32,869 nucleotides of DNA from an uncultured Deferribacteraceae bacterium (GTDB lineage: Bacteria; Chrysiogenota; Deferribacteres; Deferribacterales; Mucispirillaceae), in NCBI GenBank assembly GCA_947041165.1, contig CAMRCY010000025.1, forward strand, positions 1-32,869. Reading direction: 5' to 3'. Within the stretch, counting starts at the first letter, position 1. Each line of letters begins with the position of its first letter. The notes beneath the pieces were generated by a model. It saw only the letters and a program-made list of their open reading frames with translations. It ran no database searches and was not told the DNA's origin. The position numbers and the translations under genes are program-made. Shown here piece after piece: positions 5,782 to 30,266 of the stretch.

Positions 5782-6333
5782 TTGAGTACAAGTAAACTAA
5801 TTGAAACAATCAATAGTGAATTAATATCAGAACAGTTAGATGAGATAAATGTAAAGTTAGACGAGAGCGAATTAAATAACTTAGATATCGCAACAACTAT
5901 GATGAGTAATGACGGAGTTGATTGCGAGTTTTTAGCTGATGCATTTAACAACTCAAACACTCACATAGTGAGCAACATCAATAACGCAGTTAATTGCGAG
6001 CAACTTTCTGAACAGTTAGATAGCATAGAGTTAGAATTAGATAAAATTGAAACAGTTGTTACAGACAAACTAAATGAGAGCACCAATAACGATCTGTCAG
6101 TTGATCAAGTTCGTAACTTAGATATTATCACATCAAATAAATCTGATGAGAAGGTTGATAGAGAGTTATTATCTGAAGAGTTTGATGAGATGGATATTGA
6201 AACAAATTATAAATACAACAGTAAATATTCTTACGATGAAGTATCTCCAAATGATGATCCTGCTGATCTTGTGGACATCTTTCCAAACATGTTAGGAAAC
6301 GAAAATAGATATTATCCAAAATTTTGGTATTAA
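5782..6333 (+). CDS. acidic internal-repeat protein, first gene of the module
   Basis: This is a 183-aa, strongly acidic protein of unknown function. It begins with TTG at 5782, chosen because AAGGGGGAG (5768-5776) is 5 nt upstream. A short motif of the form E-x-L-[SA]-[ED]-x-[LF]-[DN] occurs four times (residues 13-20, 49-56, 73-80, 128-135), three of them followed by an acidic stretch such as EINVKLDE or SIELELDK. A longer duplication pairs NLDIATT...VDCEFL (34-51) with NLDIITS...VDRELL (112-130). The C-terminus ends with an aromatic tail (NRYYPKFWY). No DNA-binding or membrane segment is visible. Its place directly behind the module promoter would suit a regulator or decoy-like early protein, but that is conjecture. 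Confidence 0.75.
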   Translation: MSTSKLIETINSELISEQLDEINVKLDESELNNLDIATTMMSNDGVDCEFLADAFNNSNTHIVSNINNAVNCEQLSEQLDSIELELDKIETVVTDKLNESTNNDLSVDQVRNLDIITSNKSDEKVDRELLSEEFDEMDIETNYKYNSKYSYDEVSPNDDPADLVDIFPNMLGNENRYYPKFWY

Positions 6334-6348
6334 TTAGGACTAAATTAT

Positions 6349-6747
6349 ATGAATGAAAAGTTGTACTCTTTACTTGATGAAGCGTATCTGCTATCAACTG
6401 AGATTAAAGATATGAATGAAAAATTGAAAAACATAAAAGAAGAAATTATGAAATCAATAGATGTACCGAAAGATAAAAAATCTTTCAAAATATCTACTTC
6501 TAATTTAACGATGAAAGTTACATTTAAAAAAGTATTAAAGTGGGATCAAGTAACATTAGAAAAAATCAAAAATAAGGTAGGTGATAATATTTTCTACAAA
6601 ATATTTACTACTGAATATAAACCGATAAAAAGCGGTATTCAAGATATTTTAAACAATTTTAATAAAGAGATTAGAACTCTATTTAACAAAGCTGTAAAAG
6701 AGGAAAATAGAGCTCCTTATATCGAAATATACAAGGAGAGTAAATAA
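6349..6747 (+). CDS. small phage protein of unknown function
   Basis: This 132-aa, lysine-rich protein has an N-terminal helical, coiled-coil-prone stretch (residues 1-38), then alternating strands (SFKISTSNLTMKVTFKKVLKWDQ, about 45-67) and a helical C-terminal part. The arrangement of a helix followed by 'kv..kkvlkWDq..l..i' is reminiscent of small proteins found before phage terminase genes (DUF7173-like), but I cannot confirm this. It starts 15 nt after the previous gene with a weak AGGA site and ends 3 nt before the small terminase gene. Confidence 0.7.
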   Translation: MNEKLYSLLDEAYLLSTEIKDMNEKLKNIKEEIMKSIDVPKDKKSFKISTSNLTMKVTFKKVLKWDQVTLEKIKNKVGDNIFYKIFTTEYKPIKSGIQDILNNFNKEIRTLFNKAVKEENRAPYIEIYKESK

Positions 6748-6750
6748 TCT

Positions 6751-7173
6751 ATGACTAAAGAAACTATGGTTAAGTTAGATAATTTTCTTAAATATTTAAC
6801 ACAAAATGGAAATGTATCTAAATCAGCTAAAAAAGCAAATGTTGATAGAAGTTACATTTATCAACTTCGTAAAGAAGATATTGAGTTCTCTAAAAAAATG
6901 ACAGACGCAAGATCTATCGCATTTGATCTATTAGAAGAAGAAGCGTTAAAAAGAGCATTAGAGGGCGTTAATCAAAAAGTTTATTATAAAGGAGAAGTTG
7001 TTGACTCTGTAAAAGTTTATTCAGACAAATTGCTCTTAGCGTTACTTAAAGCAAATAATCCAGAAAAATATGCTGAAAATATCGTCAATCGTAATCCTGA
7101 TATTGCAAACTTGCTTAGTAAATCAATTATGAAAAATAAAGAAGAAGATGTGATAAAAAGCATAGATGAATAA
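6751..7173 (+). CDS. terS: terminase small subunit
   Basis: This is probably the DNA-recognition subunit of the packaging terminase, 140 aa. Residues 10-35 form a helix-turn-helix (LTQNGNVSKSAKKANVDRSY). The central and C-terminal segment has the family pattern EEEALKRALEGV..KVYYKGE...YSDKLLLALLKANNPEKY, common in small terminases that precede TerL. AAGGAGAG lies about 10 nt before the ATG. The last 8 nt overlap the start of the large subunit gene, as expected for subunits made together. The DNA site it recognises (cos, pac or non-specific) cannot be inferred. Confidence 0.85.
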   Translation: MTKETMVKLDNFLKYLTQNGNVSKSAKKANVDRSYIYQLRKEDIEFSKKMTDARSIAFDLLEEEALKRALEGVNQKVYYKGEVVDSVKVYSDKLLLALLKANNPEKYAENIVNRNPDIANLLSKSIMKNKEEDVIKSIDE

Positions 7174-8644
7174 GCTTAACTATAACGATAAAGACCTAAA
7201 CATCTTGATGGATTTTTTAGCAGAAACTAGTAACGATCCTTTGAAGTTTGTAGAAAATTTATTTAGATGGGATCAATTAGGAGCATCAAAATTTAAATCC
7301 CCTCTCAAATGGCAAAGGAAGATTTTAGAAGATATTAAAACTGCACTAGATTCTAATGAGAAGATAATTAGAATAGCAACTGCATCTGGACATGGTATCG
7401 GAAAATCTGCACTTGTTGCATGGCTGATACTCTGGGGGATTTCCACTAAACCATACACTAAAGGAGTGATCACTGCTAATACTGAAACACAACTTAAAAC
7501 AAAAACTTGGGCTGAATTATCAAAATGGTACAGGTTATCAATTGTTGCACCTCTACTAAAACTTACAGCAGATTCTGTTCACACAATAGATCAAGCGTGT
7601 GAGAAATCATGGCGAATAGATATGGTGCCGTGGAGTAAACATAACTCTGAAGCGTTCGCTGGATTACATAATCAAGGAGGGAGAGTTCTTCTAATATTTG
7701 ATGAAGCATCATCTATTCCTGATACAATTTGGGAAGTTGCAGAAGGTGCTATGACTGATGATGAAACAGAAATCATATGGATAGTTTTTGGAAATCCAAC
7801 CAGATCATCAGGAAGATTTAAAGAGTGTTTTGGCAGGTTTAGACATAGATGGAAAACGTATCAAATATCATCAAAAGATGTAGAGATCACAAATAAAAAG
7901 CAGATCAACAGATGGATTGAAGATTATGGTGTTGATTCAGATTTTGTGCGTATTAGAGTTTTAGGAGAGTTTCCACTGTTATCGCAAAACCAACTTATCG
8001 GATACGACACTATCAACATATCTAGAAACAGAAATATCTCTCTAGATGATGTTGAAGGTGAGCCTAAAGTTATTGGAGTTGATGTTGCGAGATTTGGAAA
8101 TGACTTATCAGTTATCGTACTTAGGCAAGGCAGATTAATTATAGATATCGAAAGATATTACAAAATAGACACAATGAAACTATCTGGAATAATCGCTGAA
8201 AAAATAGCTCAATTTTCACCAGATATAATATTTATAGATCAAACAGGTGTTGGAGGAGGTGTTGTTGATAGACTGCATCAGTTAGGATTTAAAGATGTTG
8301 TTGGAATAGATTTTGGATCATCTGCAACTAACAAAAAAATGTATCTTAATAAGCGTGTTGAAATGTGGCATAAGATGTCTAAGTGGATTAAAGATAAAGG
8401 AAAATTAATTGATGACAAAGATCTTATTAACGATCTTATATCTCCAACTTATTCGTACTCTGGTGATAGCTCGCAAATGATTTTAGAGAAAAAAGACTCA
8501 ATGAAAAAAAGAGGGTTAGCATCACCTGACTCTGCTGACGCTTTAGCATTAACATTTGCACATGATATAAATATTGACCTGCATAGTAAAAATATTGAAA
8601 AAAGAAATAATATCTTGAACGATTTAACAGATATTAACTTATAG
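7166..8644 (+). CDS. terL: terminase large subunit (ATPase-nuclease)
   Basis: This is the DNA packaging motor and nuclease, 492 aa, close to the usual TerL length. The N-terminal ATPase has a Walker A motif GHGIGKS (75-81), Walker B LLIFDE (175-180) and coupling motif FGNPT (208-212). The C-terminal RNase H-like nuclease has its acidic residues in GVDVARFGND (D306), FIDQTGVGGG (D359) and SPDSADALAL (D455/D458). All key residues are present, so the motor should work. It docks on the portal encoded just downstream. Its integrity argues that the particle still packages DNA. Confidence 0.96.
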   Translation: MNKLNYNDKDLNILMDFLAETSNDPLKFVENLFRWDQLGASKFKSPLKWQRKILEDIKTALDSNEKIIRIATASGHGIGKSALVAWLILWGISTKPYTKGVITANTETQLKTKTWAELSKWYRLSIVAPLLKLTADSVHTIDQACEKSWRIDMVPWSKHNSEAFAGLHNQGGRVLLIFDEASSIPDTIWEVAEGAMTDDETEIIWIVFGNPTRSSGRFKECFGRFRHRWKTYQISSKDVEITNKKQINRWIEDYGVDSDFVRIRVLGEFPLLSQNQLIGYDTINISRNRNISLDDVEGEPKVIGVDVARFGNDLSVIVLRQGRLIIDIERYYKIDTMKLSGIIAEKIAQFSPDIIFIDQTGVGGGVVDRLHQLGFKDVVGIDFGSSATNKKMYLNKRVEMWHKMSKWIKDKGKLIDDKDLINDLISPTYSYSGDSSQMILEKKDSMKKRGLASPDSADALALTFAHDINIDLHSKNIEKRNNILNDLTDINL

Positions 8645-8653
8645 AGGTAAACA

Positions 8654-9028
8654 ATGGGAGTAGCGGCAGCAATCATCGGTGGCTTAGGAATTAGTAAATT
8701 TATTTTCGACACAGTTAGCGGTAGCATAGAAAGTTCTAACTCACAAAAAGCAATTAAAGAGGCTGAAGAGAAGTTAGCAAAAGAACAAAGAGAGGCTGAA
8801 GCAGAAGTCAAAAAACAGCTGGATGATGAAAGAAAATTACAAGATGTAAAAGATAAAACTTTAAGAGAAGATGCGTATCTTAACAGAAAATACGATTACG
8901 ATTCAGAAAGTAATGACACATATGTACACACTGGAAATAGTAATGAATCAGTTTATACTCCAACTATTTTAGGTGGCAGTAGTAACTCAAGTATTAGTTT
9001 AAATAAAAAAATGACAAGAAGAGTATAG
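8654..9028 (+). CDS. small pre-portal protein (T7 gp7.3-like position)
   Basis: This 124-aa protein has a short glycine-rich, hydrophobic N-terminus (residues 2-22), a charged coiled-coil (about 30-70, rich in E, K, A and Q) and a polar tail ending in a Ser/Gly-rich and then basic stretch (SLNKKMTRRV). A small protein with this arrangement and such a tail often precedes the portal gene in T7-like phages, where T7 gp7.3 is a minor virion protein acting in tail assembly or adsorption. The similarity is of layout and composition only. Good binding site AGAGG at 8643-8647. Confidence 0.7.
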   Translation: MGVAAAIIGGLGISKFIFDTVSGSIESSNSQKAIKEAEEKLAKEQREAEAEVKKQLDDERKLQDVKDKTLREDAYLNRKYDYDSESNDTYVHTGNSNESVYTPTILGGSSNSSISLNKKMTRRV

Positions 9029-9035
9029 GATAGTT

Positions 9036-10712
9036 ATGAACACAGATAAATTAAAAGAATTAGCTTGCAACATCGACAGAAATATTAAAAAACTCGCTAA
9101 GCTACGATCAGATCATATATCAATTTATAAAGAAATCACTCGATATATCTGTCCTGAAAGAGGAAGATATCCTAGTTATAACAACAAGTTAGATGGGTAT
9201 AATTCAATCAACAGTAAAGCAAATAAATATCTACATAACCTTGCATCAATTTTGCAATCTGGATTAACATCCCCTGCTCGTCCATGGTTTAAATTAGCGT
9301 TGCAGAATAAAAAAGTTTATGAGTGGGGTGCTGTTAGAAGTTACTTATCTGAAATTGAAGAGATCATGTCACGCATTTTTAGAGTAACAAATTTCTATCC
9401 AGCTATATATTCTGCATATATTGAACTCACTGCATTTGGCACGGCTGTGATGTCTACAATGGAGAATAGTGACGAAGATAAAAACGGTTACCCGATTTTT
9501 ACAACCTACACAGCTGGGCAATATTTGCTATCTCAAAACAGTAATGGTGAAGTTGATAAAGTTTATCGAACTCAGATAATGACAGTTGAACAGATAATCA
9601 ACAGGTTTAAAGATAAAGGATTTAAGACGATTGAAAAGCTTAAAAACTATAGTCTTGATAATGAACTTAAAGTTATTCATGCAGTAGAGAAAAGAGAAGA
9701 AAGAGATCGTTCTAAGATAGATAAATATAATATGCCCTACTCTTCTATATGGATGATTGATGGATTTACCGATAAAGAAGGTTTCGGTATTTTAGACATT
9801 TCAGGTTACAACGAAATGCCATATCACATTGCAAGATGGGATGCTTTAAATGATGAGCCTTACGGAATTGGTCCTGGAATTAAAGCTTTTAAGGATGCTA
9901 AAAATCTAAATATTTTAGAACAGATTACAACTTATGGTTTAAATAAAGCTGTTAATCCTCCTATTTTAGTTCCGTCATTTATGAATATAAAACTCAACAA
10001 TGCACCAGGTGGTATCACCTATTATGCAGGACGACATGATGAGTTTCAAGTTAAGCCTCTATACACTGTATCATCTGATTTGAACGCTGCATTAGTGTTT
10101 ATGAATAGATGGGAAGAGGTTCTCAAAGAGAGTTTTCAAAACGATCTTTTTATATACATGATGAATAGATCAAATGTTACAGCAACTGAAATCAATGAAA
10201 GGTCTGAAGAGAAACTTCTACTCCTAGGGCCTGTGCTTGAAAGAATTGAAACAGAACTTCTAATCCCATGTTTTGACAGAGTGTTTGCGATATTAGAAAG
10301 GAACAACCTTCTACCTCCTGCACCTGTTGAACTATTGGGGTTAGATATCAAACCTGAGTTTATAGGTTTACTTGCGAACGCTCAAAAAGCGATCACAAAA
10401 TCATCTATAAAAAACTTAATCAATTTTGTATCGTACGCAACACAAGTTGATAGTAATGCAACAGACAAGATCGATGTAGATCAAGCTATAGATATCTACT
10501 CATCAATTGAAGGTGTTCCAAATGGTATGGTTAGATCGGATGAAGAAACTGTAAATATCAGACTTAAACGAGAAGAAGTTTTGTCTATGCAGCAGAGTGC
10601 TATGAGTGAAAGTACTAATGTTAAAGAAGCTATTGATTATGCATCTAAATTATCGAAAATTGATTTAGGTAAAAACAGTGTATTAAAAAATGCTATTGAA
10701 GGTGGTTTATGA
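9036..10712 (+). CDS. portal protein (head-to-tail connector, T7 gp8-like)
   Basis: This is the dodecameric portal through which DNA enters and leaves the capsid, 558 aa, matching the T7-type connector family (PF12236). The hallmark N-terminal region reads NLASILQSGLTSPARPWFKL (residues 68-87), close to the family phrase 'LAS.L.S.LTPP.RPWF'. The wing and clip continue with YIELTAFGTAVM (about 129-140) and a proline-rich segment LLPPAPVEL (near 430). The stop codon overlaps the next start (ATGA). No frameshift or missing region is seen. Confidence 0.93.
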   Translation: MNTDKLKELACNIDRNIKKLAKLRSDHISIYKEITRYICPERGRYPSYNNKLDGYNSINSKANKYLHNLASILQSGLTSPARPWFKLALQNKKVYEWGAVRSYLSEIEEIMSRIFRVTNFYPAIYSAYIELTAFGTAVMSTMENSDEDKNGYPIFTTYTAGQYLLSQNSNGEVDKVYRTQIMTVEQIINRFKDKGFKTIEKLKNYSLDNELKVIHAVEKREERDRSKIDKYNMPYSSIWMIDGFTDKEGFGILDISGYNEMPYHIARWDALNDEPYGIGPGIKAFKDAKNLNILEQITTYGLNKAVNPPILVPSFMNIKLNNAPGGITYYAGRHDEFQVKPLYTVSSDLNAALVFMNRWEEVLKESFQNDLFIYMMNRSNVTATEINERSEEKLLLLGPVLERIETELLIPCFDRVFAILERNNLLPPAPVELLGLDIKPEFIGLLANAQKAITKSSIKNLINFVSYATQVDSNATDKIDVDQAIDIYSSIEGVPNGMVRSDEETVNIRLKREEVLSMQQSAMSESTNVKEAIDYASKLSKIDLGKNSVLKNAIEGGL

Positions 10713-11014
10713 CAACAGATAAGAGTTCTATTTATTGGCAAAATTCTATTACAGATATAAGTAAGAGTGATAGTGGTATAAGTTTTTTAACCACCCTTCT
10801 TGTAAAGGTTGGGCATTTTACAGGGTCATTTACAACAGGTGCTACGATCTATAAAAACGCAGCACTATCTGATCTTGGTAAATGGCTAGAAAGTGAACTT
10901 GATAAAATTGATTTAAATATAATGATAAAAATCAAAAAAGAGCTACACAATATTGAATACACAAACCTAGAAAATATAAATCAAAAAGAGGAAGACTTAA
11001 ATGCAAAATATTGA
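10709..11014 (+). CDS. Bbp19-like phage protein
   Basis: This 101-aa protein has the core 'GISFLTTLLVKVGHFTGSFT', then 'KNAALSDLGKWLESEL' (about residues 23-65). That corresponds to the small family typified by Bordetella phage BPP-1 Bbp19 (a conserved '..FL..LL...G.f..sFt......f..G.r..g..L' pattern), which sits between portal and scaffold genes in podoviruses. Its function is unknown. It overlaps the portal gene by 4 nt and the scaffold gene by 14 nt, implying translational coupling. Confidence 0.75.
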   Translation: MTTDKSSIYWQNSITDISKSDSGISFLTTLLVKVGHFTGSFTTGATIYKNAALSDLGKWLESELDKIDLNIMIKIKKELHNIEYTNLENINQKEEDLNAKY

Positions 11015-11609
11015 TGCACCAGTAAACGCAGAAAACACAGATATAATTAATGGAAATAAAGTAGATAACATAAATGATAAACAGATATCCACTCACGAAA
11101 ATAGTTTAAGTGTGGATGAAATTATACCTGAAAATTTTAACGACTATGAATTAGAAAGAAACGAAAACATACCAACAAATGAGAAAGTTGATTCAGAGTT
11201 TAAAGAGTTAGCACAAAAACTTAAACTAAACCATAAACAGGTGAAAGAGATAAGTAGCTGGGCTAATAAAACAACTTTAGAATCTATAAACAACTACAAC
11301 ATAGATATGGAACAAAAAAGAGAAGATACTTTAACTCAACTTAAAACTGATTGGGGAAGTCAACATGATGCTAATCTTAAAAAGTCAATTTCAACAGCTA
11401 AAAGATTAACAGAGTTTGCTCCTGAATTTGGTGAGTATATTGAAGAATCTAAAGCTGGTAATGATCCTAAATTTATCAAAATGGTACTTAAACTTGGTGA
11501 ACTTATAAGCGAAGATAAGTTAAATATTTCATCAGGTGTATCTGCTGATAAAAAAAATTATTTAGGCAATCTACCAGTACTCTCGTTCGACTCTATGGAG
11601 AGCAAGTAG
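11001..11609 (+). CDS. capsid assembly scaffold protein
   Basis: This is a 202-aa, acidic, mostly helical protein located between portal and capsid genes, where T7 encodes scaffold gp9. The first 60 residues are polar and look disordered. The core reads FKELAQKLKLNHKQVKEIS...LTQLKTDWGSQHDANLKKS, followed by FIKMVLKLGELISEDKL. This matches the usual scaffold plan ('W...D.N...A' then 'li..l.klG'). It should chaperone HK97-fold capsid assembly and leave the procapsid. Binding site AGAGGAAG lies inside the preceding gene. Confidence 0.85.
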   Translation: MQNIDAPVNAENTDIINGNKVDNINDKQISTHENSLSVDEIIPENFNDYELERNENIPTNEKVDSEFKELAQKLKLNHKQVKEISSWANKTTLESINNYNIDMEQKREDTLTQLKTDWGSQHDANLKKSISTAKRLTEFAPEFGEYIEESKAGNDPKFIKMVLKLGELISEDKLNISSGVSADKKNYLGNLPVLSFDSMESK

Positions 11610-11650
11610 TTATTAATTAAGCAATTCACAATTATAGTAAAGGAGAAATA

Positions 11651-12631
11651 ATGGCAGAAAATTTAACAATTCAGGATATTCTAAATAGTATAGATATGAA
11701 AGGTAACGCTGCAAAAGTTGCAGAGATATTATCAAAAGCAAATCCAATTCTTAGAGATGCTCCTTGGATGGAAGCTAATGAATCTTTCGGATATAAATTC
11801 GCACGTAGAACAACTTTGCCTACTGGAGAGTGGCGTTCAATTAACTCTGGTGTTACTAACGAAGTTGCAACAACTATACCTGTAACTGAACCTATGGGGA
11901 TGCTTGAAACTTACTCTGAGATAGATAAAGCATTAGTAGATAACCACCCTCACCCTGATTATTTCCGTATGATTAATGCTAACGGATTTATTGAAGGTAT
12001 GGGTCAAACAATGGCTCAAGGGATCATCTATGATAGTAATACTGATAACAAAACTAGAGTAAATGGTTTAGCTCCTAGGCTTAATTCAACAGATAAATTC
12101 AACGTATATAATAGTGGTGGATTAGTGACTTCAACAACGTTAACATCATGTTATCTTGTACAGTGGGGCGTTGATAAAACTTTCTTATTCCACCCTAAAA
12201 ACCACAAAAGTAAAGGTGTTGAACATCAAGATCTTGGAGAGGTAACATTAAATGATATAGCTAATAAAAAGTATCAAGGTTACAGAGATCACTTTAAAGT
12301 TCATTGCGGTTTAGGTGTTATGGATGAAAGAGCAATCGCTAGACTTGCCAATATTGATGTTGCTAAAAAAGCTGGTGATGCATCAGGTGGATTTAATGAA
12401 AATCTTTTAATTGAAGCTATAAATCAATTTAATAACGACGCTGAAAATGTTGTCTTATATGTAAATAAAAAATTGAAAACAATAATGGAAATTGCACTAA
12501 AAGATAAAAACAATATCAACTATACTTTAGAATCAAACTTAGGTGGATTACCTCTTCTACGTTTTAGAGGAGTACCTGTTAGAACTCTAGATATAATCAC
12601 AAACAACGAAACATTCGTTCCAGAAGCATAA
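11651..12631 (+). CDS. major capsid protein (HK97 fold, epsilon15 gp7/BPP-1 type)
   Basis: This is the shell protein, 326 aa. Recognisable segments are MAENLTIQDIL, then ILRDAPWMEANESFGYKFAR and TTLPTGEWRSINSGV (residues 32-75), and ETYSEIDKAL (about 90-99). These fit the coat family of epsilon15 gp7, for which an HK97 fold is established. AAGGAG stands 6 nt before the ATG, the clearest binding site in the module, as expected for the most abundant product. No cleavable delta domain or fused decoration domain is apparent. A hairpin follows the gene. Confidence 0.9.
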   Translation: MAENLTIQDILNSIDMKGNAAKVAEILSKANPILRDAPWMEANESFGYKFARRTTLPTGEWRSINSGVTNEVATTIPVTEPMGMLETYSEIDKALVDNHPHPDYFRMINANGFIEGMGQTMAQGIIYDSNTDNKTRVNGLAPRLNSTDKFNVYNSGGLVTSTTLTSCYLVQWGVDKTFLFHPKNHKSKGVEHQDLGEVTLNDIANKKYQGYRDHFKVHCGLGVMDERAIARLANIDVAKKAGDASGGFNENLLIEAINQFNNDAENVVLYVNKKLKTIMEIALKDKNNINYTLESNLGGLPLLRFRGVPVRTLDIITNNETFVPEA

Positions 12632-12644
12632 TAAATAGTCAAAC

Positions 12645-12675
12645 GCTAACTCATACTTTTATGGTATGGGTTAGC
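12645..12675 (+). terminator. hairpin after the capsid gene (T7 Tphi-like position)
   Basis: GCTAACTCATAC (12645-12656) pairs with GTATGGGTTAGC (12664-12675) as a 12-bp stem with one G-U pair and a 7-nt loop. It lies in the 63-nt gap between capsid and tail adaptor genes, the place of the leaky terminator Tphi in T7. It lacks a T-run (ATTATACATA follows), so it is more likely a processing or mRNA-stability element, or a weak attenuator. Confidence 0.6.
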
Positions 12676-12694
12676 ATTATACATAGGTGTAAAA

Positions 12695-13255
12695 ATGTTA
12701 ACAAAAATAGATATATGCAATATCGCATTAGGTTTAATAGGCACAAGTTTTATTAAATCATTTGATGAAAAAAGTAAAGAAGCGCTCGTTTGCAAACAAT
12801 ATTATGATAACTGTAAAGATAAACTCCTCTCAAGATATGATTGGTCGTTTGCAAGAAAAATTGCAAAACTTGCTAAAGTTGTTGATGATGATAAATCACT
12901 CTCACAAAATATTTTTAAGAATATATTTCAACTACCAACTGATATGATCAGCATTATAAAAGTTTTTGAAAGTAACAGCTACGATTTCGTTGTGTCAGTT
13001 GATAAACTATTAACCAACCTTGATAGTGTAACAATTCTTTACACATCAAATGGAGTGAATGTTCATCTTTATACTCCACTATTTATCGACTCGCTAACAT
13101 CAACTTTAGCATCAGATTTAGCAGTTACTATAACGGACAACTATCAACTATCAGCAAACTTAAAGATCCTTGCTGAAGAGAAATTGAAAGTTGCATCTGT
13201 TGTTGATGCAAATAGCTTTAGTTCAAACTCAAGAGATAACATCTCTAATTTATAA
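12695..13255 (+). CDS. tail adaptor / tail tubular protein A (T7 gp11-like)
   Basis: This 186-aa protein is the ring that connects portal to nozzle. The N-terminal signature ICNIALGLIGTSFIKSFDEK, then ALVCKQYYDNCKDKLLSRYD and WSFARKIAKL (residues 7-60), matches the gp11/tail tubular A family ('iN.aL..iG...I.s.dE.s..A..c...Yd..rd.lL....W.FA'). The family phrase LPTDMISIIKV follows near residue 80. Length fits T7 gp11 (196 aa). Binding site AGGTG lies before the ATG. The order after the capsid gene is the same as in T7. Confidence 0.9.
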   Translation: MLTKIDICNIALGLIGTSFIKSFDEKSKEALVCKQYYDNCKDKLLSRYDWSFARKIAKLAKVVDDDKSLSQNIFKNIFQLPTDMISIIKVFESNSYDFVVSVDKLLTNLDSVTILYTSNGVNVHLYTPLFIDSLTSTLASDLAVTITDNYQLSANLKILAEEKLKVASVVDANSFSSNSRDNISNL

Positions 13256-13279
13256 CATTAAATCAATTAGGATAAAATC

Positions 13280-15340
13280 ATGGCTTTAATAATATGGAAA
13301 AATTTCTCAGCAGGAGAGATATCTCCTCTACTATCAGAAAGAACAGATATAGATCTGTATTACCGTGCAGCTAAAAAAATAGAAAACTTTATACCTCTAA
13401 AATTTGGAGGTGTAAAACGACGAGATGGTTTAAAATTTATGGGTGTAATGAATGAAAATATATATGACCCTGGTACAAAATTTATCCCCTTTAAATACTC
13501 TGAAAGTGTGTCTTACATACTAGAATTTTCTCATCAGTATTTTAGAGTGATAACACCTAACGGCTACTTATTAGATAACAATAATGTAATACTGAAAATT
13601 TATTGTGGAATATCCGTCAAATATATTAATGATGTTTCTTATGCACAATATGAAAACAAATTATATATGTGTCATAGTAAATTTCCTCCTAAAATAATAG
13701 AGCTAAACGGTACAACTTGGAAAAGTTACGAAATGAAGTTTAATTCAGAATCTAAAAAAGTTCTAGCAGTAACAGTTTTAACCCCTAGACCAACTGGAAA
13801 ACCTATACCCGAAGGAACGGTATATAAAAATGTTTCATACACTGTAATACCATTTGATAAAGATAATATACCTGGGTATAAATCATACGTACTACAAACT
13901 AAAGATGTGCCAAAATACCCTACTCAAGATTTTTACACATATATAAGTTGGACTGCTTGTAACGATGCTAGTGGATATCTTCTGTATGAAGTTGAAGATG
14001 GTATAGAGTCATTCCTTATGAAGACAACAAAAACTATTTATAAAGATTTTGGATACCACGCTCTAAATCACAATAAAGGTTTTCCTCAACAAACATCTCT
14101 TTTTACAACTACAGATCAATACCCGTCTAAAGTTACTTTTTATGACAGGAGATTAATTTTTGCAGCATCAAATAAAGAACAGCATACAATTTGGGGATCA
14201 GCCCCTGCTCTCTTTCATAATCATATGGCTGAAAGTATTCCAACAGATGCTTGTCCTTGGAAATTTACAGTAGCATCTAATCAGAAAAATCCTATTAACT
14301 GGTTATTTTCATCTGACAAATTAATTGTCGGTTCTGACTCTGATGAATGGAGAGTAAGCGGAAGCTCTGGTGAAAGTATAACTCCAAACTCTATAGAAGT
14401 TAGAAGACTCTCTTCATGGGGATCAGCAGAAATGACTCCTAAAGCGTTAGGTGATGATATTCTTTTTATAGATAACACGAGAAAAAATATTCGTGCTATG
14501 AATAAAAATAATAATTTTAGTATATCAAATTTAAATATTTATGCAGACCATCTAACTAAAGATTGTAAAATTGTAAACTGGGATATCGTTACTGGCGACA
14601 ATCAGATTATCTACCTTGTGTTAGATAATGGATCTATGATCGGACTTACATACGATAAAGATCATCAAGTGTTTGCATGGCATAGATACACTACTGATGG
14701 AAAATTTCTAGATGTATGTATGCTTAAAAACAATGGTGAATGTAACTTATTTGTATCAATTGAAAGAGAGGTTGATGGTAAGAAAATAACAACATTAGAG
14801 ATGTTCGACAACAGTCATTATCTAGATTCTTTTATCTCATATAATGGAGATGAGATTACGAAACTTGAAGGCTTAAATCACTTAAAAGGCAAGGTTGTTG
14901 AAGTATCTACAAACACTAAATCTAGTAAAAAATATACAGTAGATAAGGAAGGTATGATAACTCTAGATGAGCCTTCAAATAATATTGTAGTAGGCTTAAA
15001 CTTTGAATCAGTTTTAGAAACATTACCGTTAGAATCTGCAACAGCTGTTGAATCTCTAAAAGTTAGAAAAAATAAAATCACAAGTATAAAACTTAAAATA
15101 ATTGATACACTTGGATTAGAAGTTGGAATACATAATGATGATTTAATGATGCTACAGTACGATAATGTTGAGAATAATAACATCAATAATAGCAATAATT
15201 TAGACCTATACTCTGGAACTAAGTATGTTGGAAATATTTCTGGCTATGATGAGAATTGCTCAATAATCATTAAACAAAACAACTCATTGCCTGCAACAAT
15301 TTTAAGTATCTATGCTGAAGTTCTCGGTATCGCATTATAA
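13280..15340 (+). CDS. tail nozzle / tail tubular protein B (T7 gp12-like)
   Basis: This 686-aa protein forms the tail nozzle. The N-terminal family signature NFSAGEISPLLSERTDIDLY, then ENFIPLKFGGVKRRDGLKF (residues 8-51) is typical of podovirus nozzle or tail tubular B proteins ('F..GElsp.l..R.D...Y..g...leNfi....Gg..rRpGt.fv'). A beta-rich propeller-like body follows (for example VSGSSGESITPNSIEVRRLS, near 355). Length is somewhat below T7 gp12 (794 aa). It ends TAA at 15340, in the same frame as the next gene but separated from it by a second stop, TAG (15344-15346). Confidence 0.88.
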   Translation: MALIIWKNFSAGEISPLLSERTDIDLYYRAAKKIENFIPLKFGGVKRRDGLKFMGVMNENIYDPGTKFIPFKYSESVSYILEFSHQYFRVITPNGYLLDNNNVILKIYCGISVKYINDVSYAQYENKLYMCHSKFPPKIIELNGTTWKSYEMKFNSESKKVLAVTVLTPRPTGKPIPEGTVYKNVSYTVIPFDKDNIPGYKSYVLQTKDVPKYPTQDFYTYISWTACNDASGYLLYEVEDGIESFLMKTTKTIYKDFGYHALNHNKGFPQQTSLFTTTDQYPSKVTFYDRRLIFAASNKEQHTIWGSAPALFHNHMAESIPTDACPWKFTVASNQKNPINWLFSSDKLIVGSDSDEWRVSGSSGESITPNSIEVRRLSSWGSAEMTPKALGDDILFIDNTRKNIRAMNKNNNFSISNLNIYADHLTKDCKIVNWDIVTGDNQIIYLVLDNGSMIGLTYDKDHQVFAWHRYTTDGKFLDVCMLKNNGECNLFVSIEREVDGKKITTLEMFDNSHYLDSFISYNGDEITKLEGLNHLKGKVVEVSTNTKSSKKYTVDKEGMITLDEPSNNIVVGLNFESVLETLPLESATAVESLKVRKNKITSIKLKIIDTLGLEVGIHNDDLMMLQYDNVENNNINNSNNLDLYSGTKYVGNISGYDENCSIIIKQNNSLPATILSIYAEVLGIAL

Positions 15341-15355
15341 GATTAGGAGGTTACA

Positions 15356-15850
15356 ATAATAATCGAAAATATTGGAAAAACAAAACATAATAAAAAGCTA
15401 CATATTGAAACCAGGGACTCTACATCTAATGATCTCATAGGGTTTGAGCCTCGCTACGATGATGATAAAAACTATATTAATGAGCTTACTTTATACATAG
15501 AAAACTTTCCTACAACTACACTTTTAATAGACAATAAAATTATTGCAATTGGTGGTTTTATTAGAAGTCATAAAGGGGTATGGAGCAGTTGGAATATAGT
15601 GTCTAAAGATTATGCAAATTATAAAAAAAGTACATTTAAATATATTGCAACCACTTTCTATAAATTGAAAGAACGAATTAAATCTATTGAAACAGTTCAT
15701 CGGTTTCAAGCACTTATACGAGCTGATAGACCTGAGGCTATAAAATTTAATCTTCTACTTGGGTATAAAAAAGAAGCGGTACTAAAGCAGTATGACATAT
15801 ATAAAAATGATGTATTAATTATGTCTGAATTAATTAAAGGAGATGAATAG
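15356..15850 (+). CDS. T7 gp13 / GNAT-fold phage protein with a non-canonical (ATA) start
   Basis: The open frame runs from 15347 after a TAG and encodes about 164 aa, but it contains no ATG, GTG or TTG until GTG 15599. AGGAGG (15345-15350) stands 5 nt before ATA 15356 and 8 nt before ATA 15359, so one of these should be the start. The conserved body begins well before 15599: IIAIGGFIRSHKGVWSSWNI, then RADRPEAIKFNLLLGYKKEA near the C-terminus. This is the GNAT-like fold of T7 gp13-type proteins (DUF2833/GNAT). The acetyl-CoA binding pattern RxxGxG is not seen, so it may be structural. The order nozzle, gp13, gp14, gp15 matches T7. A sequencing error is possible but would have to remove the start codon only. 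Confidence 0.75.
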   Translation: MIIENIGKTKHNKKLHIETRDSTSNDLIGFEPRYDDDKNYINELTLYIENFPTTTLLIDNKIIAIGGFIRSHKGVWSSWNIVSKDYANYKKSTFKYIATTFYKLKERIKSIETVHRFQALIRADRPEAIKFNLLLGYKKEAVLKQYDIYKNDVLIMSELIKGDE

Positions 15851-16450
15851 ATGGGTGCAATGACAATGGTTGACATGACAACCTTAACTGCTGGATTAAA
15901 AATGATTGGAGGTATAAGTGGTGGTCAAAGTGATAATGCTACATCTAAAATGCAGAGCAGATATAATATATCAAACCTTAAAATGGATAACAGTATTAAA
16001 AACCATAACATAAATTTAGATATACTAACCACTAAACGAGAGGCTGAACAGATACGAACTCAAAATAGTTACGATATGTTTGAGTACGATTATCAAACAT
16101 CAAATACTGTTGCAAGTCGTGAGGTTGAAATTCTTTCATCAGGTGTAGAACTTTCAGGATCAGCTTCAGCTGTTTTAAATGGAATAGAAAATCAAGTTAT
16201 AACAGAGAGAGAAAGCAGAGTACAGATGCAAAATAGCGAAGCAATAAAAAGAGAACATCTTGCAACCAATCTACTGCATGAAATAAATTATAACAATATC
16301 TTAACTGATTATAATATTAAAGCAGCAGAGTTCGGACTGAATAATACCCTTAGCAAAAACAACTCTGATATCTTTAGCTCACTCGGAAGCTCTATGAATG
16401 ATTTATATAAAGATATTAATAAACTAAATACAGCTACACAAACAAAATAA
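15851..16450 (+). CDS. internal virion protein (T7 gp14-like)
   Basis: This is a 199-aa protein of the ejected core that would form the outer-membrane part of the DNA ejection channel. It has a glycine-rich N-terminus (GLKMIGGISGGQ, residues 15-26) and a long helical region with the phrase REVEILSSGVELSGSASAVL (about 94-113), typical of gp14-like proteins ('..i...l..sGv..sGS...vl'). It is Asn- and Ser-rich. The ATG directly follows the stop of the previous gene with AAAGGAGA upstream, so translation is probably coupled. Length matches T7 gp14 (196 aa). Confidence 0.75.
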   Translation: MGAMTMVDMTTLTAGLKMIGGISGGQSDNATSKMQSRYNISNLKMDNSIKNHNINLDILTTKREAEQIRTQNSYDMFEYDYQTSNTVASREVEILSSGVELSGSASAVLNGIENQVITERESRVQMQNSEAIKREHLATNLLHEINYNNILTDYNIKAAEFGLNNTLSKNNSDIFSSLGSSMNDLYKDINKLNTATQTK

Positions 16451-16512
16451 CCGTATGAAATAATTATAAATCTATCGCAATAAAGTAACATTAAAATTAA
16501 TGGAGAGTAATA

Positions 16513-17715
16513 TTGGCTACTATAAATAAAGTTGATTACAATAAAAGTATTAGTAACAAAAAGCAGACAACAATCTTATCTGCAATCTATGATCAAGAAA
16601 CATTAGATGCACTATCAATATATAAAGTTCTATCAAAAGAGAACGACTTTATCGTCTATCTTAACGAACAAATTGATGAAGCTAAAAATAAGAATGAAGA
16701 AGAAATTTTAAATATACTATTTGAACTATCAGAAACATTTAAGAAAACAATTAAAGAGATTACTAAAACGCTTACATCAAACACTGAAAAAATAGCGTTC
16801 ATGAAATTTGCAGAATCTAAAGTTAGCAGAGAACTTACTGCACTACATACCTACTGTATGAATAAAATTGAAGAGAAAAAAAATATCGAGTTACAAAGAT
16901 ACTGTGACTATTTAATCGATAACTCAAATGTAAATTATAATAATTTTCAAATACATGAAGAGAATATAACTTACTATAAAAACTATATATCTATATTAAA
17001 TAAAAACAGTAAAGACTCTCTCAAAATAGCTGAATACAACATCTATAAAGCAGCCATAACTGGATCTATAGAAAGTAAAGATTATGCCTTCGCAAAATCT
17101 ATATTAAAAATTAAAAAAATCTCTAAATTGTTTTCTGAAAGCGAAATATTAATGTGTGAAACATTAATTAAAAAAATATATGAAGAAGCATTAATAAACA
17201 AATTAGAAAGCAGTTTTGTGATCTCCACTGATAAAACCTTAGATCAAAATATATCAGAAATAAACTCAGCTATGGCAAGTGGTTTAATCGATAAAGAAAC
17301 AGCCGATAGCCTGATTGAAAAGATTAAAGACAATAATACTTTTAAAGAATTCTACTTTAAAAAAGAGATCAGTAATACAGTTATCTCAACAATTTATCAA
17401 CTGTTAAACGATATCTATTCATCGAAAACATACGATATAAATTATCGTGATATTAATCTTGATGCAAGCTCAAAACATTTTATAAGAACAGTTATTGAGA
17501 ACTCACTCATAGCCACCACTGATAAAATTAAAGAGAAAAGATTTAAACTATTCGAAAGCTTAACTAATAAAATAGGTTCTGGATTTATTGATGATATATA
17601 CACAGTTATTAAGTCTGTTGAGGTGTTAACATATTTTCAAATATCAGATGCTTTAAAAATCATTAAGATATTTATTGAAGCTGAAAGTCAACGAACTACA
17701 GTCATCAAGGAGTAA
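16513..17715 (+). CDS. probable internal virion protein (T7 gp15-like position)
   Basis: This 400-aa protein is almost entirely alpha-helical, lysine/glutamate-rich, without signal or membrane segments. It starts with TTG 16513 behind GGAGAG (16502-16507). Helix-pair phrases such as IYKAAITGSIESKDYAFAKS and INSAMASGLIDKETADSLIE (about 186-205 and 252-271) recall the helical-repeat pattern of gp15-type ejection proteins. Position after gp14 supports this. It is much shorter than T7 gp15 (747 aa), and no gp16-like partner with a transglycosylase domain follows. I recognise no specific family; the assignment rests on position and secondary structure. Confidence 0.6.
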   Translation: MATINKVDYNKSISNKKQTTILSAIYDQETLDALSIYKVLSKENDFIVYLNEQIDEAKNKNEEEILNILFELSETFKKTIKEITKTLTSNTEKIAFMKFAESKVSRELTALHTYCMNKIEEKKNIELQRYCDYLIDNSNVNYNNFQIHEENITYYKNYISILNKNSKDSLKIAEYNIYKAAITGSIESKDYAFAKSILKIKKISKLFSESEILMCETLIKKIYEEALINKLESSFVISTDKTLDQNISEINSAMASGLIDKETADSLIEKIKDNNTFKEFYFKKEISNTVISTIYQLLNDIYSSKTYDINYRDINLDASSKHFIRTVIENSLIATTDKIKEKRFKLFESLTNKIGSGFIDDIYTVIKSVEVLTYFQISDALKIIKIFIEAESQRTTVIKE

Positions 17716-17718
17716 AAA

Positions 17719-17949
17719 ATGGAGCTACTACCTATATTAAAACTTATCGTAACAGATAGCATTCCGATTGCAATTCTACTTATATTCCTTGTTGCAAAAT
17801 TCAATATGATTGAACATAAAATGAAAGACCTAAGAAGTCATTTCGATATTTATATACGAGATAATTATATCACTCGTGATGAGTGTGGCGCTAATCGTGT
17901 CGCAACAAAAGTTGTTAAAAAAGTTAGCACAAGGAAGAGTACAAAATGA
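17719..17949 (+). CDS. small single-span membrane protein, possible holin or holin partner
   Basis: This 76-aa protein has one membrane helix (about residues 9-27, IVTDSIPIAILLIFLVAKF), a short amphipathic helix and a basic tail (KVVKKVSTRKSTK). The phrase DNYITRDEC resembles the middle of XhlA-type and other small phage membrane proteins. It begins 3 nt after the gp15-like gene and its stop overlaps the next start (ATGA). Position at the head of the lysis genes suggests holin, antiholin or partner of the next protein; sequence alone cannot decide. Confidence 0.6.
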   Translation: MELLPILKLIVTDSIPIAILLIFLVAKFNMIEHKMKDLRSHFDIYIRDNYITRDECGANRVATKVVKKVSTRKSTK

Positions 17950-18248
17950 TTGAAGAAATGATTTTAACAAAACTGATACCATATGTTTTACCTGCATTTA
18001 TGATAAATATTATTCTTGATTTTATAAAGAAAAACTTTTTCATACTTAAACCAAAGTTGGTTATGCCGATTTTAGCACTGCTTCTTTCATTAATACTATC
18101 AGTTACTTACTCTATACTTGTTAATTCTTCTGGATTAGATAAATTTACGCATGCTATATCTATAATAGGTATATCATTTTTTATGTACGACATCGGAGGT
18201 TATCAATCTATGAAAAATAAGTTACTTAAACTAGTAACTAGAAAGTAG
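17946..18248 (+). CDS. putative holin
   Basis: This 100-aa, strongly hydrophobic protein has two or three membrane helices (about residues 9-25, 37-60 and 69-84) and a basic C-terminus (MKNKLLKLVTRK). Size, topology and the location just before spanin and endopeptidase genes fit a holin that opens the inner membrane at lysis. It overlaps the preceding small membrane protein by 4 nt, and the two may act as a pair. No family signature was recognised. Confidence 0.65.
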   Translation: MIEEMILTKLIPYVLPAFMINIILDFIKKNFFILKPKLVMPILALLLSLILSVTYSILVNSSGLDKFTHAISIIGISFFMYDIGGYQSMKNKLLKLVTRK

Positions 18249-18253
18249 GTATT

Positions 18254-18469
18254 ATGCAGAAATATTTAACAGTGATTTTATCAATTATAAATACAATTTT
18301 AGTCGGTGCGATATCATTAATTGTAGTAATCGGAAAGAATAGAAAAATTAAAGAGAAAGAAAAATTAGTAGAAGAGATTGAAAAAAAAAGTGAGGTTGAG
18401 AGAAAAATATTACAACTTAATGATAGTTTGAAGAAAGGTGAAAATAATGATTCGCATAATAAATGGTAG
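18254..18469 (+). CDS. i-spanin (Rz-like)
   Basis: This 71-aa protein has an N-terminal membrane anchor (about residues 5-27) followed directly by a charged coiled-coil (KEKEKLVEEIEKKSEVERKI, 34-53). This is the arrangement of an inner-membrane spanin subunit with a periplasmic coil. Its 3' end overlaps, in another frame, the start of a lipoprotein-like gene, the classic Rz/Rz1 arrangement. The coil is short compared with lambda Rz. The pair fuses inner and outer membrane at the last step of lysis, so the particle is released from a Gram-negative cell. Confidence 0.75.
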   Translation: MQKYLTVILSIINTILVGAISLIVVIGKNRKIKEKEKLVEEIEKKSEVERKILQLNDSLKKGENNDSHNKW

Positions 18470-18740
18470 CTTAATAACAGCCGTAATTTTAATACTTATA
18501 ACTCTTCAACTCTCATGTAGTAGACATGTAGTCATTTCTAAATGTCCTAAATTATACCCAGTAGATCGACCTGCATTTCCTGAGATCAAATACATTGAAA
18601 CGATCGCAGAAAATATGTATTGTTACGATAACATGAATTTCAATTTACTTAAAGAGAGGTTAGTTTTTTGTAAAAGCAGTACAGAAATTTATGAACAAAT
18701 GATAAAAATTTATATGGAGTATATTAATGAAATTAGGTGA
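18447..18740 (+). CDS. o-spanin-like lipoprotein (Rz1-like)
   Basis: From ATG 18447 (AAAGG 8 nt upstream) the product is 97 aa. It has a hydrophobic signal (about residues 8-22) ending in an imperfect lipobox LQLSC with C24 as the lipidation site. A short proline-containing stretch follows (CPKLYPVDRPAFPEI). A GTG at 18438 is in frame but overlaps the binding site. The gene starts inside the i-spanin gene in another frame and ends inside the endopeptidase gene. It would sit in the outer membrane facing the i-spanin. It is longer than typical Rz1 and has four additional cysteines or more after C24, which could form disulfides. Confidence 0.7.
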   Translation: MIRIINGSLITAVILILITLQLSCSRHVVISKCPKLYPVDRPAFPEIKYIETIAENMYCYDNMNFNLLKERLVFCKSSTEIYEQMIKIYMEYINEIR

Positions 18741-19065
18741 AGCACAAGAGGTTTTTACATACAATGTATCTAAACTTATCCAGCATTCTGTAGCACTTGG
18801 ATATACAGTCAGGTTGCGTGAAGTTGAACGAACTTCTTACCAACAACAACAATACGTAAAACTAGGAGTTTCTAAAACAATGAACTCGCTACATCTTAAA
18901 TCGTTAGCAGCAGATATATACTTTTTCAAAAAAGCTAAATTAATTTTAAGTAAAAAACAGCTAAAAGAGTTAGGAACATATTGGGAATCTTTAGATAAAC
19001 ATAATCGTTGGGGTGGGAATTTTAAATCATTTACAGATACGCCACACTTTGAAATGGATATATAA
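18727..19065 (+). CDS. M15-family peptidoglycan endopeptidase (endolysin)
   Basis: This 112-aa protein is a zinc peptidase of the M15 family (VanY/L-alanyl-D-glutamate peptidase type) that cuts peptide stems of peptidoglycan. The zinc ligands are in SLHLKSLAAD (H56, D63) and TPHFEM (H107), with the usual tryptophan-glycine motif NRWGGNF (93-99) before the last. There is no signal peptide, so release depends on a holin. It overlaps the o-spanin gene by 14 nt and is the last gene of the module. Length fits compact phage M15 endolysins (110-140 aa). Confidence 0.9.
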   Translation: MKLGEAQEVFTYNVSKLIQHSVALGYTVRLREVERTSYQQQQYVKLGVSKTMNSLHLKSLAADIYFFKKAKLILSKKQLKELGTYWESLDKHNRWGGNFKSFTDTPHFEMDI

Positions 19066-19140
19066 AACTTATATTTATGTGTTATATAAATTATACAGTT
19101 TGAAATATTTTAACACAACTAACCTACTCTAATATTTCTA

Positions 19141-19300
19141 TCATATAGTTGACGTGTTTTGAATATAGTTGTCGTGTGTTTTAACGAAACTGATAATTTA
19201 TTTTAATCATATAGTTGACTTGTTTTGAATATAATTATTGTGTGTTTTAACTAAACTAATAATTTATTTCAATCATATAGTTGACGTGTTTTAAACACAT
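19141..19300. repeat. 66-bp tandem repeat at the right edge of the module
   Basis: TCATATAGTTGAC recurs at 19141, 19207 and 19273, a 66-bp period with about 2.4 copies. Each unit itself contains two diverged halves with the core GTTG(A/T)CGTGTGTTTT. The last copy includes the palindrome GTGTTTTAAACAC (19286-19298). The rest of 19066-19396 holds no gene that I can support. The array separates the last phage gene from rsfS. Confidence 0.9.
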
Positions 19301-19396
19301 TGACAACGTGTTTAGGATATACTATTAGTATGTTTTAATTAAGTAAACTGATTGACGCAATATTTAATCTAATAAATTTTGCATCAACAAATTTGT

Positions 19397-19466: not shown

Positions 19467-19799
19467 TTAAATCTTTTTCGATCCGCCCCAAATAGACTCA
19501 AGGTCGTAGAATTCACGTTCATCTTCTCTCATAATATGTACAATAACATCAGAGTAATCAACACAAACCCACACACCAGATTGAAGCCCTTCATGAAACG
19601 CAGGCATAATACCTTCTTTCTTTAATTCTACCATAAAATATTCTGCAATAGCCTTTACATGAGTATCTGCTGACCCTGTTGCAATAATAAAATAATCTGC
19701 AAGTGATGATATTGGTGCTATTTCAAATATCACTGTATCTTTTGCTATTTTATCCTCTAAAAACTCTCTTATTTTCTTTGCTAATTCTATTGATTTAAT
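19467..19799 (-). CDS. rsfS: ribosome silencing factor RsfS, ATT start
   Basis: RsfS binds ribosomal protein uL14 and blocks subunit joining in starvation. The body SSLADYFIIATG and VWVCVDYSDVIVHIM...EREFYDLESIW is diagnostic. The nearest GTG (19733) would give 88 aa and remove the conserved N-terminal helix. The frame continues upstream without a stop, giving KSIELAKKIREFLEDKIAKD, just as in other RsfS proteins. No ATG, GTG or TTG occurs there. GAAGGAG lies 8 nt before ATT (19799-19797) and 2 nt before ATC (19805-19803), so ATT is the best start (110 aa, normal for RsfS). It is the last gene of the proB-proA-nadD-rsfS run, 38 nt after nadD. Confidence 0.88.
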   Translation of the reverse strand: MKSIELAKKIREFLEDKIAKDTVIFEIAPISSLADYFIIATGSADTHVKAIAEYFMVELKKEGIMPAFHEGLQSGVWVCVDYSDVIVHIMREDEREFYDLESIWGGSKKI

Positions 19800-19837
19800 A
19801 TCGATTACTCCTTCTTTATTAATATATTATATTTATA

Positions 19838-29393: not shown

Positions 29394-30266
29394 TTATTTT
29401 ATTGCAACAAACTCAATATAGCCTCTACTACCGATCGGTTCAAGCTGTATACGAGGGCTTTTTGCGTCCCAAGTATATCCTATAACTGCTGGATCATATT
29501 TCTTAATCGCACTACATACCTCACTTATCGCCAACATATAATTTTCCTCTTCAAACGGTTCTCCATTAAACATCAGATATTTAGCCATAGGTAAATCTAT
29601 AATATCAAAACCGTTAGGCAACTCTCCATCATAGCTAGTCAAAACCTCTACACCTTGCACATACTCGGAAGTCCCTTGCTCGATATAAGCAGATGGCAAC
29701 CACATACCTATCGGTTCATTACTAATAGATTTAATACTTGTTAAAAACCCCCAAATATCACAATCCACCTCATTGCAGTAAGCGAAATAATCTGTAGCCT
29801 TAACACCTCTTTTGATAATTACTTTACGAGCAGGTTTTTCAATCACCTGAATAAATATATTTTTTACAGTTTCCATTATAGCTCTCTCCATCATATTTTT
29901 TCTATACTTAACACCGTAAGGAGTGAACAGATATATAGGAATAGGTTTTATAGAATATTCGCTAGGATTTATACCAAACTCACGAAGAAATGCTCTCTGA
30001 TATCCATCAACACTTTTAAACCCCATTTCAAAAGCTATATCAACTATTTTCTGATCTTGATCACGCAGACGTAATGCTGATTTTGATAATCTTAGTTTGC
30101 GTATATAGTTAGATGGAGTAAGTCCAGTCCACCCTTTCAGCAAACGATATGAGTACCATGGAGAAAGCTTTGATACTGTCGACAAATCTCTAAGAGTAAT
30201 CTCATCATATAAATTGGCTTCTATAAAATCTTGCATACATTGAACAGCTTTTTGTTGTATTAGCAT
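29394..30266 (-). CDS. AraC-family regulator with GyrI-like effector domain
   Basis: This 290-aa protein has an N-terminal AraC DNA-binding domain with two helix-turn-helix units (about 8-105; FIEANLYDEITLRDLSTVSK and IVDIAFEMGFKSVDGYQRAF, ending in REFGINPSEY). A C-terminal GyrI-like/BmrR-type ligand domain (about 125-290; phrases MAKYLMFNGEPFEEENYMLA and GYIEFVAIK) follows. This is the Rob-like architecture, known to sense small amphipathic or aromatic compounds and to control efflux or metabolism. The ATG at 30266 has a purine-rich upstream stretch (GGTGGAAAAGGG). It is alone in its transcription unit; the target is not evident. Confidence 0.92.
   Translation of the reverse strand: MLIQQKAVQCMQDFIEANLYDEITLRDLSTVSKLSPWYSYRLLKGWTGLTPSNYIRKLRLSKSALRLRDQDQKIVDIAFEMGFKSVDGYQRAFLREFGINPSEYSIKPIPIYLFTPYGVKYRKNMMERAIMETVKNIFIQVIEKPARKVIIKRGVKATDYFAYCNEVDCDIWGFLTSIKSISNEPIGMWLPSAYIEQGTSEYVQGVEVLTSYDGELPNGFDIIDLPMAKYLMFNGEPFEEENYMLAISEVCSAIKKYDPAVIGYTWDAKSPRIQLEPIGSRGYIEFVAIK

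Follow-up and report, generated by a model that had tools for sequence, protein, structure and literature searches.

Probable AUA initiation of a gp13-position gene in a T7-type virion cassette of a Deferribacterota genome

Gene content of the locus

The window, a stretch of 32,869 nucleotides that makes up contig C25 in a genome of 2.14 Mb, encodes a T7-type virion cassette in which an open frame lies between the genes for the nozzle and a gp14-like protein (Table 1). The sequence confirms what the initial annotation described at the head of this frame: a perfect AGGAGG, two ATA codons at workable distances behind it, and GTG 15599, which is codon 85 of the frame, as the first canonical start, with no ATG, GTG or TTG in frame before it. 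After the two ATA codons, the third codon near the Shine-Dalgarno sequence is ATC (15362). The nozzle gene is read in the same frame, with two stop codons (TAA 15338 and TAG 15344) intervening.

Table 1. Features of the start region, the virion cassette and the adjoining rsfS gene (positions in the window)
Feature	Position	Strand	Details
Open frame	15347-15850	+	167 codons
Shine-Dalgarno sequence AGGAGG	15345-15350	+	AGGAGGT counting 15351; pairing -11.4 kcal/mol
ATA, alternative start	15356-15358	+	spacing 5 nt; ATA in both congeners too
ATA, most likely start codon	15359-15361	+	spacing 8 nt; ATG in both congeners (codon alignment)
gp13-position gene of T7-type cassette	15359-15850	+	163 codons plus stop; phrog_4177
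GTG, first canonical in-frame codon, unlikely start	15599-15601	+	GTT and GTA in congeners
Nozzle (gp12-like) gene	13280-15340	+	phrog_376, E 6e-133; stop TAA 15338-15340
gp14-like gene	15851-16450	+	PF24072, E 5.6e-5, just under curated cut-off
T7-type virion cassette	5782-19065	+	terminase, portal, capsid, tail tube, nozzle, internal proteins, endolysin
rsfS	19467-19799	-	inferred start ATT 19797-19799, behind AAGGAG 19808-19813

The gene order of nozzle (phrog_376), open frame and gp14-like gene (PF24072) is that of T7, in which gp13 lies between the nozzle protein gp12 and gp14, and bears out the assignment of the frame to gp13 as far as position is concerned. The predicted product is also similar in size to T7 gp13 (approximately 138 residues), but no sequence match between the two was obtained. 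Its sole family match is phrog_4177, of unknown function, which covers residues 57-155 of the frame and thus begins upstream of GTG 15599. The GNAT-like label of the initial annotation is not confirmed and rests on resemblance: one phage protein annotated as "putative acetyltransferase" matched weakly, Pfam and NCBIfam profiles yielded no acetyltransferase match, solved structures gave a chance-level match only, and the AlphaFold model, built from three sequences, has a mean pLDDT of 37.7, too poor for a fold search. A profile search of 50 genomes of the phylum identified no homologue beyond two congeners; a weak match in a further genome (G010, locus L004, E 9.9e-4) vanished with the profile search and was rejected. 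In phage records, tblastn gave one weak homologue (Methylophilales phage MEP301), and a search of viral contigs gave neither a homologue nor an independent copy of the start site.

The cassette adjoins rsfS-nadD-proA-proB in all three species, its left junction being seen in the window only. Synonymous divergence (dS) is mostly 0.3-0.9 in the element versus mostly 0.4-0.75 in host genes, and dN/dS of the core genes is very low (TerL, 0.02; portal, 0.047; capsid, 0.045; gp11, 0.012-0.014). Virion genes are vertically kept at one locus under purifying selection, as in gene transfer agents, and neither an integrase nor a replication gene could be recognised between 5782 and 19065, where several genes have no assigned family. 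These features fit a vertically inherited, gene-transfer-agent-like candidate with podovirus-type parts. One cassette gene (6349-6747) has a dS of 0.15 to congener G001, well under its neighbours, which may reflect local recombination or constraint. Just past the endolysin gene, at approximately 19100-19350, imperfect repeats with ATATAGTTGACGTGTTTTGAATATA are apparent by eye and could be regulatory.

Comparison with congeners

Full-length orthologues of the gp13-position gene are found in congeners G003 (81% identity) and G001 (73% identity), without indels or stops, which indicates that the frame is a real gene and not a chance one. A third congener (G002), in which proA, nadD and rsfS were likewise not found, was left out of the site comparison. 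Starting at the nozzle stop, the window (TAAGATTAGGAGGTTACAATAATAATC), G003 (TAAGATTACGGAGTTAAAATAATGGTA) and G001 (TAAGATTATGGAGTTGAAATAATGATA) can be aligned across the junction with no indels. The initial annotation had proposed homologues as a guide to the N-terminus and start codon, and the codon alignment places both at the column of ATA 15359, where each congener has ATG. ATA is therefore most simply a derived state, the start having apparently changed from ATG to ATA in the lineage of the window. The start codons of all other comparable genes of the element, TTG and GTG ones included, are unchanged between the window and the congeners. The ATA at 15359 is known from one genome, which is probably metagenome-assembled, as are those of its relatives.

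The Shine-Dalgarno sequence also differs. Its pairing with the anti-Shine-Dalgarno sequence is -11.4 kcal/mol in the window, -8.5 kcal/mol in G001 and -6.1 kcal/mol in G003, so that the window has the stronger site by 2.9-5.3 kcal/mol. No other gene of the element shows so large a shift, the others drifting by up to 2.4 kcal/mol; given that drift, the change may be drift in part. Among the genes of the element, the one with the strongest Shine-Dalgarno sequence starts at TTG. The coincidence of a stronger site with a weak start suggests compensation, although in a single case. The proposal that a rare start serves to hold the protein at low copy found no direct support; the strengthened site that accompanies the derived start looks more like compensation.

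Homology favours ATA 15359 as the most likely start codon. The 5 nt spacing of ATA 15356 is nearer to the distances found in hpf, hflX and infC, so that this codon also remains a candidate. The motif itself is uninformative: AGGAGG-N5-8-ATA occurs 32 times genome-wide versus 37 times for the reversed control. In the absence of enrichment, the motif taken alone is no evidence for a start, and the argument is founded on the orthologues.

The frame is under purifying selection in the two congeners. In the pairwise comparison with G003, the gene as a whole has a dN/dS of 0.14, with 0.10 in the codons ahead of GTG 15599 and 0.18 in those beyond it. Unique changes (synonymous/nonsynonymous) number 20/17 in the window, 15/14 in G003 and 16/30 in G001, which indicates no relaxation on the window branch, although a very young start mutation might not yet have left visible decay.

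Initiation at AUA and its alternatives

Taken with these comparisons, the sequence makes it quite probable that this virion-cassette gene is functionally initiated, at reduced efficiency, at AUA 15359 (or AUA 15356). An ATG start would have become ATA in this species, and a Shine-Dalgarno sequence with a GGAG core would have been extended to the seven-base match AGGAGGT. The strong site would position the 30S subunit, perhaps assisted by coupling to the nozzle gene, whose terminating ribosomes would be 18 nt upstream, and fMet-tRNA would then initiate at the AUA less efficiently than at AUG. We infer the reading of AUA as fMet, its efficiency, the compensatory role of the Shine-Dalgarno change and the coupling from this arrangement; the sequence comparison directly shows where the N-terminus lies, that the loss of ATG is derived, that the site is stronger, that the frame is under purifying selection and that AUA and AUU starts are conserved in other genes of the phylum.

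A recent mutation might instead have abolished the start and left the gene silent or nearly so, as an incipient pseudogene in a prophage-like element. The start was indeed lost in this species only, AUA is a weak start, and the remaining frame would stay open for some while after such an event, but silencing is unlikely in view of a Shine-Dalgarno sequence stronger than those of the congeners, a window branch without relaxation, and the intact remainder of the cassette, which is under strong purifying selection. Moreover, the AUA starts of Staphylococcus aureus (PMC13009471) and of Listeria (PMC13068326) are functional. Random single disruptive changes strike the start in only 9-12% of cases in the gp13-position gene and 5-8% in 28 genes of the window, rates that weaken both decay and base error as explanations, to the extent that one event can.

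Such an error in the assembly consensus, with position 15361 really G and the gene starting with ATG, is very unlikely. One base would suffice, and the relatives are metagenome assemblies too; however, the genes of the window align to those of the congeners over their full length without stops, the Shine-Dalgarno sequence differs as well as the start, and natural AUA, AUU or AUC starts of rsfS and hflX recur in several independent assemblies.

It is highly improbable that the protein is produced by another route, either as a short form from GTG 15599, the first canonical start, or as an extension of the nozzle protein, whose gene shares the frame: the GTG is GTT or GTA in the congeners and therefore not a conserved start, it would leave out codons with a dN/dS of 0.10 and the beginning of the phrog_4177 match, readthrough would have to pass both TAA and TAG, and a frameshift is rejected by a junction that shows no indel or frame change relative to congeners that use ATG after the nozzle stop.

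Initiation at AUA is of a known kind, of which a virion-cassette gene in Deferribacterota would be a new instance. The S. aureus genes infC, ccpN and citZ have AUA as their start codon; reporters with the AUA of ccpN and citZ yield approximately 10% of the expression obtained with AUG, rising for ccpN to as much as 30% in rich medium, and the AUA of citZ is a lineage-specific state (PMC13009471). As in the window, AUA stands behind an extended Shine-Dalgarno sequence in the S. aureus genes and that of citZ is confined to one lineage, but ribosome profiling and reporters support those cases, whereas the virion-cassette gene is supported by comparison. In Listeria monocytogenes, natural and selected ATG-to-ATA changes in rsbW lower translation, which still occurs (PMC13068326). 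Such a change is likewise a single step in one lineage; it confers a gain under stress through lower RsbW, and strengthening of the Shine-Dalgarno sequence is not reported in the portion of the source consulted, whereas the gene in the window has the stronger site and no known advantage from its ATA.

The gene for IF3, infC, starts at AUU, AUC or AUA and resembles the gp13-position gene in having a non-canonical start behind a strong Shine-Dalgarno sequence. Autoregulation of infC through IF3 is established in E. coli; by contrast, the gp13-position gene has no known feedback of this sort, and the congeners do not share its ATA. A natural ATG-to-ATA change in a selected gene, with ATG-bearing sisters at hand, makes Shine-Dalgarno compensation directly testable.

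Non-canonical starts elsewhere in Deferribacterota

Individual reading of 30 of the 32 AGGAGG-N5-8-ATA matches revealed one further convincing non-canonical gene start, that of hflX. Read from sequence and homology, the start of this gene is ATA or ATT in 28 of the 30 Deferribacterota genomes compared (22 ATA and 6 ATT, among them the genome of the window and its three congeners) and ATG in the other two, each start following a Shine-Dalgarno sequence in the same column (loci L052-L081; the window genome's own copy is on G000:C46, from 2161). The script counted 20 ATA and 6 ATT; L078 and L081, which it scored as GAA, have an ATA preceded by GGAGG one codon further upstream, a call made by eye from the printed sequence. 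The ATA of L073 depends on a start shifted one codon by hand, and a canonical codon is present further upstream in frame in L072, L076 and L079. A literature search found no paper on a conserved AUA or AUU start of hflX in this phylum. In hpf, which served as the control, the start is ATG in 30 of 30 genomes.

The infC start is likewise read as ATA in nearly all of 35 Deferribacterota loci (L012-L017, L082-L110), mostly as GGAGGTGA-NNN-ATA, with exceptions in G004 (ATC) and the outgroup family (ATT); in the genus of the window, the frame also has an ATG five codons ahead of the ATA, which makes the start ambiguous. In rsfS, the inferred start is ATT in the window and G001 and ATC in G003, the three congeners where the gene was found, versus an ATG close to this column in almost every other genus. 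No canonical start precedes GTG 19731-19733, which is GTT in G001 and from which the conserved N-terminus would be lost.

Initiation at AUA in the virion cassette fits a lineage in which infC, hflX and rsfS have non-canonical starts, and the initial annotation's view of such starts as very rare applies less to this lineage than it assumed. Its proposal of a start ahead of GTG 15599, with AUA as the simplest choice, holds up against the ATG column of the congeners and the AUA and AUU starts conserved in infC and hflX of the phylum. Gene callers restricted to ATG, GTG and TTG would miss or halve the gp13-position gene, and in these genomes their hflX and rsfS predictions would come out truncated.

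The products of infC, hflX and rsfS all act on the ribosome, and the AUA or AUU start of hflX beside that of infC suggests start-codon control of ribosome factors. More tentatively, and with considerable doubt, AUA, AUU and AUC starts might constitute an IF3-sensed set comprising infC, hflX and rsfS, into which the virion-cassette gene was recruited in one species and whose expression would go up whenever ribosomes outnumber the available IF3. Such a set would link the splitting and silencing of ribosomes, and possibly the assembly of particles, to the state of the ribosomes.

Elsewhere in the window, an AraC-like gene on the minus strand (29394-30266) has a dS of 0.02 to G001 versus approximately 0.5 in its neighbours, which may be read as a recent exchange between species.
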